A stretch of DNA of 64,000 nt, taken from positions 1,364,001 to 1,428,000 of the forward strand of contig BSNO01000003.1 of the NCBI GenBank assembly GCA_030160035.1, in the 5' to 3' direction. The notes beneath the pieces are model-generated. The model was given only the letters and a program-made list of their open reading frames with translations, was not told where the DNA came from and did not search any database. Shown piece by piece: positions 53,202-56,040 of the stretch; positions within the stretch are counted from its first letter, which is position 1, and each line of letters starts with the position of its first letter. This DNA comes from Rhizobium albus. Its GTDB lineage: Bacteria; Pseudomonadota; Alphaproteobacteria; Rhizobiales; Rhizobiaceae. Made by a program: the position numbers and the translations under genes.

Positions 53202-54611
53202 ATGTCTGTTGAAATTCTGATGCCGGCGCTGTCCCCGACGATGGAAGAGGGCACGCTGTCGAAATGGTTGAAAAAGGAAGGCGATACGGTCACCGCCGGT
53301 GACGTCATCGCCGAGATCGAGACCGATAAGGCGACGATGGAAGTCGAAGCCGTCGACGAAGGCACGATCGCCAAGATCGTCGTTCCGGAAGGCACCGAGA
53401 ACGTCAAGGTGAACGCCGTCATCGCGATCCTCGCGGAAGAAGGCGAAGACGCGTCGGCCGCCGCGTCCGGTGGTGACCAGAAGGCAGAAGCCGAAGCGTC
53501 CGCGGAAGCCGAAGCTCCCAAGGAAGAGCCGAAAGGTGAAGCCGAGGGCTCCAAGGACAGCGGCAAGGTTCCGGCCCAGCCCAAGGTCGAAGCGCAGTCC
53601 GATCCGGATATTCCGGAAGGCACCGAAATGGTATCGACGACGGTGCGAGAAGCACTCCGCGACGCCATGGCTGAGGAGATGCGCCGCGACAAGGACGTCT
53701 TCATCATGGGTGAAGAAGTCGCCGAATATCAGGGCGCCTACAAGATCACGCAGGGCCTGCTGGACGAGTTCGGCGCCAAGCGCGTGGTCGATACGCCGAT
53801 CACGGAGCATGGCTTTGCCGGCGTCGGCGTCGGTGCGGCCATGTCGGGTCTGAAGCCGATCGTCGAATTCATGACGTTCAACTTCGCCATGCAGGCGATC
53901 GACCACATCGTGAACTCGGCTGCCAAGACCCTTTACATGGCCGGTGGCCAGATGGGTGCGCCGATCGTCTTCCGTGGACCGAACGGCGCGGCAGCGCGCG
54001 TCGGTGCCCAGCACTCGCAGTGCTATGCCGCATGGTACGGACACATCCCGGGCCTCAAGGTCGTCATGCCTTACACGGCAGCCGACGCCAAGGGCCTGCT
54101 CAAGGCCGCTATTCGGGATCCCAACCCGATCATCTTCCTCGAAAACGAAATCCTTTACGGCCAGAGCTTCGACGTCCCGAAGATGGACGATTTCGTGTTG
54201 CCGATCGGCAAGGCCCGGATTCACAAGAAGGGCACGGACGTCACGATCGTCTCCTTCGGCATCGGCATGACCTACGCGGTCAAGGCTATGGACGAACTGG
54301 CCGGCATTGGCATCGATGTCGAGCTCATCGATCTTCGTACGATCCGCCCGATGGACCTGCCGACCGTCATCGAGTCCGTGAAGAAGACCGGCCGTCTGGT
54401 CACCGTGGAAGAGGGGTTCCCGCAATCTTCCGTGGGCACCGAGATTGCCACGCGCGTGATGCAGCAGGCATTCGATTATCTTGACGCGCCGATCATCACG
54501 ATCGCCGGCAAGGACGTGCCGATGCCTTACGCCGCCAACCTGGAAAAACTCGCGCTGCCGAATGTCCAGGAAGTCGTCGATGCTGTGAAAGCCGTGACTT
54601 ACAAAGCCTGA
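53202..54611 (+). CDS. pdhB: Pyruvate dehydrogenase E1 component, beta subunit with lipoyl domain
   Basis: 469 aa, about 140 longer than a plain E1-beta because of an N-terminal lipoyl domain (1-80, lipoyl-lysine Lys43 in [10 protein letters not shown]) and an Ala/Glu/Lys-rich linker (about 81-140). The E1-beta part starts at [20 protein letters not shown], with [16 protein letters not shown]-like [40 protein letters not shown] and [16 protein letters not shown]. The lipoyl-E1-beta fusion is known from Sinorhizobium and other alphaproteobacteria. It begins 15 bp after pdhA. Confidence 0.97.
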
Positions 54612-54624
54612 GGGAGGGCAAGAG

Positions 54625-56040
54625 ATGCCGATCAACATCACGATGCCCGCGCTCTCTCCCACGATGGAAGAGGGCAATCTCGCAAAATGGCTGGTGAAGG
54701 AGGGAGACAAGGTCTCCTCCGGTGACGTCATCGCGGAGATCGAAACCGACAAGGCGACGATGGAAGTCGAAGCCGTCGACGAAGGCACGGTCGCAAAGCT
54801 CGTTGTGCCGGCCGGTACAGAAGGCGTGAAGGTCAACGCCGTCATCGCCATCCTCGCCGAAGAAGGTGAAGACGCCGCTGCCGCTGCCAAGGGCGGTGAT
54901 GGTAGCAAAGATGCTGAAGCAGCTTCAAAAGCCCCTCATCCTGAGCCTGTCGAAGGGCGAGGGGATGAAGGGCAAGATCGGGCCACCCCCGCCCTTCGAC
55001 AAGCTCAGGGTGAGGGTGGATCGACGACCGAGCAAGCAAAGCCGGTCGCCGACCAGGCGCCCGCTGCGGCTACGCCGGCACCGAAGAAAGACGGTGAGCG
55101 CATTTTCGCATCGCCGCTCGCCCGTCGCCTCGCCAAGGAAAGCGGCCTCGACCTCACCGCTGTCTCGGGCTCCGGTCCGAAAGGCCGCATCGTGAAAGCC
55201 GATATCGAGGCAGCCGCCAAGGGTGGCGCGCCGAAGGCAGCGGCAAGCGCGGCGCAGGCTCAGTCCACATCGGCCACCGCACCAGCGCCGATGGCGAAAG
55301 GCGCCAGCGACGAGCAGGTTCTCAAGAACTTCGCTGAAGGCTCCTACGAGCTCGTCCCGCATGACGGCATGCGCAAGACCATCGCCAAGCGGCTGGTCGA
55401 GTCCAAGCAGACCGTCCCGCACTTCTACGTATCGGTCGATTGCGAGCTTGATGCGCTTCTGGCGTTACGCAAGCAGTTGAACGACGCCGCACCGGTTCGG
55501 GACGACAAGCCCGCCTACAAGCTTTCGGTCAACGATCTGGTGATCAAGGCGCTCGCTCTGGCGCTCCGAGACGTGCCGGACGCGAACGTGTCCTGGACCG
55601 AAAGCGCGATGGTCAAGCACAAGCACGCCGATGTCGGCGTTGCCGTGTCGATCCCGGGTGGCCTGATCACGCCAATCATCCGCAAGGCCGAGGAGAAGTC
55701 GCTGTCTGCGATCTCGAACGAGATGAAGGATCTCGGTAAGCGCGCCCGTGACCGCAAGCTGAAGCCGGAAGAGTACCAGGGCGGAACGTCGGCGGTCTCC
55801 AACATGGGCATGATGGGCGTCAAGAACTTCTCCGCCGTCATCAACCCGCCGCATGCCACCATCCTTGCGGTTGGCGCTGGTGAGAAGCGGCCGGTCGTGA
55901 AGAAAGGCGAGCTGGCGATTGCGGAGGTCATGACGGTCACGCTCTCGACCGACCACCGCTGCGTCGATGGCGCGCTCGGAGCCGAACTGATCGGTGCCTT
56001 CAAGCGCTACATCGAAAACCCGATGGGAATGCTGGTCTAG
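54625..56040 (+). CDS. pdhC: Pyruvate dehydrogenase E2 component (dihydrolipoamide acetyltransferase)
   Basis: Core of the PDH complex (also called aceF). 471 aa. One lipoyl domain at 1-80 (Lys43), a linker, a peripheral-subunit-binding domain at about 157-195 ([34 protein letters not shown]), and the catalytic domain from about 240 with the active-site [13 protein letters not shown]. Residues about 104-131 of the linker ([24 protein letters not shown]) are encoded by a palindromic repeat at 54934-55015 inserted in frame. The rest is canonical and intact. 13 bp from pdhB. Confidence 0.97.
54934..55015 (+). repeat. Palindromic repeat inserted in frame within pdhC
   Basis: Two 31-base arms (54934-54964 and 54985-55015) are inverted copies with 27 of 31 positions matching, separated by 20 bases. 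Each arm contains the core TGTCGAAGGGCG or its complement CGCCCTTCGACA. I recall this core as part of a palindrome family abundant between genes in many alphaproteobacteria, which gives PEPVEGRG and LRQAQGE peptides when translated. Here it adds about 28 residues to a flexible linker. Confidence 0.85.

Follow-up and report, generated by a model that had tools for sequence, protein, structure and literature searches.

The pdhC gene and the palindrome in its linker

The window analysed here is a 64,000-nt stretch of Rhizobium albus DNA (contig BSNO01000003.1, positions 1,364,001 to 1,428,000), and it carries a pdhC gene whose 471-codon product matches the NCBIfam model TIGR01349 with an E value of 4.9e-176, above the cut-off. 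The linker between the first two domains of the encoded E2 protein contains a palindromic dimer. The features, numbered from the first letter of the window, are as follows.

54625..56040, plus strand: pdhC, E2 dihydrolipoamide acetyltransferase of the pyruvate dehydrogenase complex, 471 aa (open reading frame, TIGR01349, Pfam domains, E2 relatives in the PDB)
54634..54855, plus strand: lipoyl domain, residues 4-77 (PF00364, Biotin_lipoyl, E 2.3e-20)
54856..55101, plus strand: interdomain linker, residues 78-159, mostly predicted disordered (interval between Pfam domains; pLDDT)
54932..55020, no strand assigned: whole dimer element (homology to an in-frame uvrB copy in the same genome, 86.5% identity over 89 nt, ungapped, 41 nt exact)
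54934..54962, plus strand: palindrome unit 1, 29 nt, in frame (core match at 54941-54956; unit definition and pair counts)
54963..54986, no strand assigned: spacer separating the two units (direct reading; within the homology to the uvrB copy)
54987..55015, minus strand: palindrome unit 2, 29 nt, with the plus-strand frame LRQAQGEG (core match at 54993-55008, minus strand)
55102..55209, plus strand: E3-binding domain, residues 160-195 (PF02817, E3_binding, E 1.8e-17)
55342..56034, plus strand: catalytic acyltransferase domain, residues 240-470 (PF00198, E 9.5e-83)

One inverted repeat is found between 54800 and 55200. Its arms, at 54933-54963 and 54986-55016, are 31 nt each, 90% complementary and 22 nt apart, so that the original prediction, made from the sequence alone, had the arm length right and the span, given as 82 bp, slightly too short at 84 nt (54933-55016). 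As it had also stated, the repeat lies wholly inside the pdhC reading frame, keeps that frame, and separates the lipoyl domain from the E3-binding domain. The frame is open throughout, and the predicted insert-derived segment of PdhC comprises residues 104-132. An AlphaFold model built on a shallow 16-sequence alignment (mean pLDDT 70.9, pTM 0.50) places residues 91-158 below a pLDDT of 50; the linker is thus predicted to be disordered, which lends support to the earlier suggestion that the repeat is tolerated in a flexible linker.

An 86-nt stretch covering the dimer folds far better than its shuffled versions, both as DNA (z -7.2) and as RNA (-65.1 kcal/mol, z -7.9), with none of 200 shuffles as good in either case. 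Single arms fold no better than shuffles as DNA (z -0.40 to -0.47) and weakly better as RNA (z -1.8 to -1.9). A known RNA family was considered for the region and rejected: the ten Rfam matches in 54400-55500 all fall under their gathering scores (best E 1.5e-5, 33 of 97 bits), the pattern expected of a long hairpin. Hairpin elements that ribosomes bypass are known from some mitochondria, and the strong predicted hairpin could mean that this segment is present in the mRNA and absent from the protein; since the frame is open through the segment, plain reading suffices, and we regard such a bypass as very improbable.

A dispersed family of 29-nt hairpins

Each arm of the repeat is itself an imperfect 29-nt palindrome with a consensus near CCTCATSCTGAGCYTGTCGAAGSATGAGG. 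Its core, CTGAGCNTGTCGAAGG, has 12 exact matches at eight loci of this genome, the reversed-pattern control giving none; allowing one mismatch, there are 18 matches here and four and six in two genomes of the same genus (G001 and G002, respectively). These dispersed copies, together with a second dimer in uvrB, are consistent with the "mobile-type" repeat originally proposed. They also refute the idea that the palindrome arose by drift in a low-complexity linker. PdhC linkers are GC-rich and repetitive, and codon shuffles of them yield many weak inverted repeats, but the shuffle tests and the copies elsewhere in the genome leave chance a negligible probability.

To describe the unit, 42 loci (12 from this genome and 30 from genomes G267, G259, G071 and G243) were gathered by an exact 15-letter core with one free letter and gave 32 distinct units. 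Because collection by an exact core fixes the core columns, these are uninformative, including the tandem G.A mismatch that all 32 units carry. As drawn, the stem comprises 8 by 8 positions around a 5-nt loop. The first stem pair is A-T in 12 of the 32 units and the second T-A in 25, while pair 7-23 is C-G in 21, G-C in eight, G-T in two and A-T in one. On the unit alignment, 87.2% of the cells of this hairpin are paired, compared with 77.3% after shuffling and 33.8-55.0% when the structure is slid along the alignment. Two-sided changes occupy 31 cells (14.0 in shuffles) and the covariation score is 0.321 (0.176 in shuffles), values that none of 500 shuffles reached; less striking is the number of pairs changed on both sides, seven against 5.0, which 33 of 500 shuffles equalled. 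Outside the stem, columns 1-4 form standard pairs with columns 29-26 in 23, 23, 29 and 22 of the 32 units. Most units start with CCTC, C4-G26 being paired within CCTC...GAGG-type ends in 19 of 32, and some of those from G071 start with GTTC. The loop can be given as 5 nt, of CYTGT type and closed by a single G-C pair, but when single units are folded the open loop is predicted to be larger. This genome also has related units whose stem carries a GG/CC exchange (CCTCATGGT...ACCACGAGG). Dimers differ in orientation, minus/plus pairs 30-60 nt apart being common in G259 and G243 and plus/minus pairs occurring in G071 and in pdhC.

Two of the eight loci in this genome, pdhC and the C-terminal tail of uvrB, hold in-frame intragenic units. 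The other six were placed outside genes, four of them between convergent gene ends (L031, L032, L033 and L038), gene calls at the repeat loci being open reading frames with a codon-position GC bias, made without annotation. An open frame overlaps the units at L036 and L041, and was taken as a chance frame at the former and as lying upstream of the true start at the latter. At L041 (G000:C4:721080-721741), four palindrome units surround a small gene, one of them in the open frame before the likely start codon; from a motif recognised by eye, the gene presumably belongs with the GIY-YIG type. Two core units, at L031 and L038, bear GTCGG ends instead of CCTC and adjoin a different, CTCCCCC-rich palindrome.

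The uvrB tail (G000:C1:1401594-1403240; L034 and L183) contains four in-frame repeat-derived stretches, and two of them together make up a copy of the pdhC dimer. The frame through the pdhC dimer ends ...LRQAQGEGG, and that of uvrB reads PHGEPVEPRG...LRQAQGEGG. By the gapless match listed above, the pdhC dimer and the first uvrB dimer are the same element. The uvrB genes of G001 and G002 are without these repeat-derived segments, and in G002 a core lies about 50 nt after the end of the uvrB match. Related units are also seen in uvrB tails of other genera (L192 and L204). UvrB tails were considered as a statistical hotspot, and this was not established: among the 28 of 33 loci that could be parsed, inverted repeats scoring at least 12 occur in two tails (0.3 expected) and those scoring at least 13 in none, and the evidence there consists of the repeat units themselves.

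The PdhC and UvrB loci contain nine units found by pattern, two each at L001 and L071, three at L183, and one each at L192 and L204. All nine are read in the unit frame that gives PH(P/G)E or Q(A/D)E, although by direct reading two of the three frames on each strand of the unit are open. This use of one frame, in perhaps seven independent events, is suggestive of selection against the other frames and is not proof of it.

Of 240 genomes sampled from the class, which is Alphaproteobacteria as judged from the named PdhC matches, 33 contain the core, this genome among them, with 1 to 89 copies each. The transposase search covered the Y1_Tnp family (PF01797), which has no match in this genome and is found in 53 of the 240; by hand count, it occurs in 8 of the 33 genomes with the core and in 45 of the 207 without it, which amounts to no association, and the two genomes richest in cores, G267 and G259, lack it. 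A REP driven by a RAYT transposase is accordingly unsupported here. Carriage of the element by plasmids or phages was likewise tried and rejected. A similar unit occurs in 22 of 72,556 plasmid records (40 places), with no annotated feature at the best place in 20 of these and no annotation at all in the other two, the plasmid gene table being incomplete. Phages gave 22 records, the matches listed being 19-24 nt long at E 0.6, and the 32-aa peptide had a single tblastn match to plasmids, at E 6.

The closest published kind, compared by description rather than by family consensus sequences, appears to be the CGTC REPs (Di Nocera, De Gregorio, Rocco 2013, PMC3733652). In the portions of that report considered here, these are mostly alphaproteobacterial short hairpins, often dimers and mostly head-to-head, with an unpaired CGTC, TGTC or CCTC tag, a stem of 8-9 bp that begins with an A paired to a T, a loop of 4-5 nt and a short unpaired tail, mostly CCA; no dedicated transposase is described as known for them. 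Our unit resembles them in its CCTC tag variant, its dimers, its host group and the lack of an associated transposase, Y1_Tnp being the one class searched. It differs in that the CCTC/GAGG ends pair in most units, that there is no unpaired CCA tail, and that the stem holds a tandem G.A mismatch. Because of the paired ends and the mismatch, we do not file the unit as a CGTC REP, although it behaves like one.

The same portions of PMC3733652 report intragenic CGTC REPs from a number of species, including a case in uvrB of R. conorii, and place the Rickettsia elements RPE-4 and RPE-6 in the CGTC REP superfamily. The parallel originally drawn with Rickettsia palindromic elements thereby gains weight, within the limit that our unit has only part of the traits of that superfamily. 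The likeness lies in in-frame palindromic inserts in unrelated genes, here pdhC and uvrB at two of eight loci; Rickettsia is another genus with another lifestyle, and the comparison rests on insertion behaviour, not on RPE sequence. GTAG REPs with RAYT transposases likewise form dispersed hairpin units and dimers, but direct reading of 54925-55025 finds neither GTAG nor CTAC, and the genome has no Y1_Tnp. Intragenic ERIC and MITE elements are, in the part of PMC10969869 considered, small mobile repeats capable of in-frame fusions; the pdhC element differs from them in that neither a target duplication nor a transposase link is seen. That part of PMC10969869 describes the frequency of in-frame fusion in Rickettsia as unusually high and a similar mechanism in other prokaryotes as conceivable. 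PMC12306157 and PMC5082802, as far as considered, describe other REPs. Among the papers listed by literature searches on intragenic palindromes in connection with pdhC, uvrB, Mesorhizobium or linkers, none reports the pdhC case, and those listed for the sequence itself are, by their titles, on other subjects, the intragenic-REP supplement of PMC3733652 lying outside their coverage.

Probable gain of the dimer and loss of native linker

PdhC was found in all 60 genomes searched, our own included. The proteins of G001 and G002, the only congeners compared, are 93% identical to it, have 457 codons each and lack the element. When the element is left out of the alignment of pdhC DNA with these two genes, a 42-nt gap remains within 6 nt of the junction. 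The congener linkers are just 14 codons shorter because pdhC of the present genome lacks about 42 nt of native linker next to the insert, so that the addition of about 28 residues originally predicted comes down to a net gain of 14 codons. Alignment with the congeners reveals no clean empty site and no target duplication. Since, moreover, the uvrB homology spans 89 nt, the length of the element need not be a multiple of three. Either gain of the element was accompanied by loss of native linker, or linker length changed independently.

The exact core occurs in 1 of 110 PdhC loci (30 from the 60-genome search, including our own, and 80 from a named-locus scan), and this one is the locus described here. 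The description of the peptide as foreign to E2 linkers thus agrees with its absence from both congeners and the absence of the core from the other 109 loci, and for the same reason the linker is not the sequence common to all relatives that would have spoken against an insertion. The pdhC repeat is a real, lineage-specific, in-frame REP-like dimer in a predicted disordered linker.

A diverged array at L036 is present in all three species, and the repeat family is therefore older than the pdhC insert. This age, together with the fact that palindromes are generally known to be lost by deletion, could also suit a dimer that was ancestral in the linker and was deleted by both G001 and G002. However, such a history needs two losses, and the Lys/Glu/Pro linkers of the two congeners align together; the core is missing from the remaining PdhC loci, and the uvrB segments are likewise absent from the uvrB genes of the same two species. 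We consider an ancestral dimer decidedly unlikely.

We propose instead, with a probability of about 85%, that a REP-like dimer was copied into the linker codons of pdhC in the lineage of this species, where it replaced native linker and was tolerated by the disordered region. Two copies of the 29-nt imperfect hairpin of the dispersed family, in opposite orientation, would have been copied together, taking the place of about 42 nt of native Lys/Glu/Pro-rich linker and leaving the frame intact, and the gene would then have been read through the dimer to give residues 104-132. Gain rather than loss is the direction we infer, from the absence of the element in the only two congeners compared. The copying itself may have occurred by mobilisation in trans; alternatively, one palindrome may have served as the source for another through ectopic gene conversion or template switching, with which the loss of neighbouring linker is in keeping. 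We propose that the insert could survive because the disordered E2 linker freely tolerates changes of length and sequence, and because the kept frame would encode a hydrophilic, Pro/Glu/Gln/Gly-rich peptide. Neutral tolerance is the most likely reason for this survival, and the insert-bearing PdhC is probably translated and functional.

Palindromes in other E2 linkers and genes

Inverted repeats scoring at least 12 are found in 6 of the 110 PdhC linkers, against 0.57 expected from codon shuffles, and in none of 110 catalytic-domain stretches of equal length; the excess fades at lower scores (at least 9: 24 seen, 16.7 expected). In the 80 named loci, which are the best matches of one scan and not a random sample, inverted repeats scoring at least 13 number 6 in 14,343 bases of linker, 14 in 644,011 bases of other coding DNA, none in the 97,194 bases of the rest of pdhC and 12 in 60,866 intergenic bases. 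Linkers are thus about 19-fold denser than other coding DNA (Poisson P 1e-6, or 3e-4 if the three Mesorhizobium cases among the six, which may be non-independent, count as one). They are not clearly denser than intergenic DNA (6 seen, 2.8 expected, P 0.07), and so resemble permissive sites more than a demonstrated special target.

In a Pseudolabrys MAG, the PdhC linker (L071:3463-3562) contains a dimer of a larger-loop relative of our unit, read in the same unit frame. This palindrome has 67 matches on 38 contigs (counted by hand) of its own genome; as palindromes match both strands, the places are fewer than the matches. In the Rhizobium albus genome it hits the middle unit of the uvrB insert (E 1.5e-5) and, at chance level, one further place. 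The PdhC linker of a Hyphomicrobiales MAG (L082) has a similar peptide, PHPEE...VSKDE, and the L071 query gave two weak matches in that MAG's own genome (E 0.036). Linker palindromes also occur at the PdhC loci L063, L067 and L054.

A further linker palindrome, in Mesorhizobium, has 94 matches in the genome of L077 and 121 in that of L047, both strands being counted. Native linker was replaced again in L047: where it has the palindrome, its close relatives L046 (414 of 460 aligned residues identical to L047) and L092 (419 of 454) carry a KAEAPK linker of the native kind. In the genome of L047, Mesorhizobium AR07 (NZ_CP080525.1), all five full-length matches of a 120-nt query lie in frame inside genes (L224-L227 besides L047): one each in pdhC, in the gene of another E2 whose lipoyl domain differs and in that of a PcrA-like helicase, and two in glyS. 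The helicase insert starts from residue 328, after the best PF00580 stretch (90-322). The two glyS inserts lie on either side of the better of two PF02092 stretches (379-680): the first, from residue 336, stops just short of it, and the second, from residue 687, sits between it and DALR_1 (761-857). The ten units share a single frame relative to the unit, giving ISP(L/P)(E/V)GEM or ISP(S/T)(R/G)GEIG, although two to five of the six frames of the unit cores are open.

Because the query came from a coding copy, the coding form is favoured among these matches. Twenty further selected AR07 places of the repeat are differently built, their spacers differing in length and sequence from those of the coding form; five (L231, L234, L235, L238 and L240) have outer blocks of the coding form and a longer middle. 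In eight of the twenty a frame is open through the entire stretch analysed, and that of L236, one of the eight, reads into a CobN match (E 1.5e-8). The differently built dimer at L236 may lie in frame in cobN. At L242, the dimer precedes the likely start of an HMGL-like gene.

Might the hairpin or its peptide be useful, for example by slowing ribosomes between the lipoyl and E3-binding domains and so allowing sequential folding? The very stable predicted mRNA hairpin between these domains would suit such a role, as would the recurrence of palindromes in E2 linkers and the single unit frame shared by all nine pattern-found PdhC and UvrB units. Yet both congeners do without the dimer, different lineages carry different palindromes, and inserts also occur in UvrB, GlyS and a helicase with no evident common function, while the choice of frame is explicable by the worse peptides that the other open frames would give. 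A selected function is therefore unlikely, and tolerated copying of a REP-like dimer into the linker is the reading we retain.

More tentatively, and with rather less than even confidence, we suggest a wider pattern: Hyphomicrobiales would carry frame-keeping palindromic dimers that often live in proteins, as a counterpart of the Rickettsia elements; the E2 linker would be a site into which palindromes of different families have inserted independently; and the compact AR07 dimer would be full-length solely inside genes, in one unit frame. The recurrence of palindromes in E2 linkers is more interesting than the single pdhC case. Rickettsia is the best-known source of in-frame palindromic repeats, and intragenic copies have been reported from other species as well. 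In the present data, separate lineages have acquired at least two clearly distinct repeated palindromes in the same protein linker, or three if the larger-loop kind is counted on its own; in both cases that can be viewed through close relatives, native linker was replaced. Palindromic repeats thus seem able to become parts of proteins, and linker palindromes offer a countable natural experiment on how this happens, one that bears on how REPs without a known transposase move and on whether the added peptide is merely tolerated.

At L115:8495-8726 of Sphingomonas sp. Leaf208, two large adjacent inverted repeats, one with CGTC-tagged ends, lie in a doubtful coding frame. The Mesorhizobium E2s at L077, L079 and L224 differ from that of L047 in their lipoyl domain, share its palindromic linker and have a very similar catalytic domain, as if E2 domains had been exchanged at the linker. 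Since the two AR07 E2s with different lipoyl domains share a palindromic linker, such linkers may serve as junctions for E2 domain swapping. In the Mesorhizobium sophorae E2 (L077:5001-6413), the linker between the E3-binding and catalytic domains also looks, by eye, repeat-derived (SPIEGGVSAKRTEEGA...PPLKGEG).
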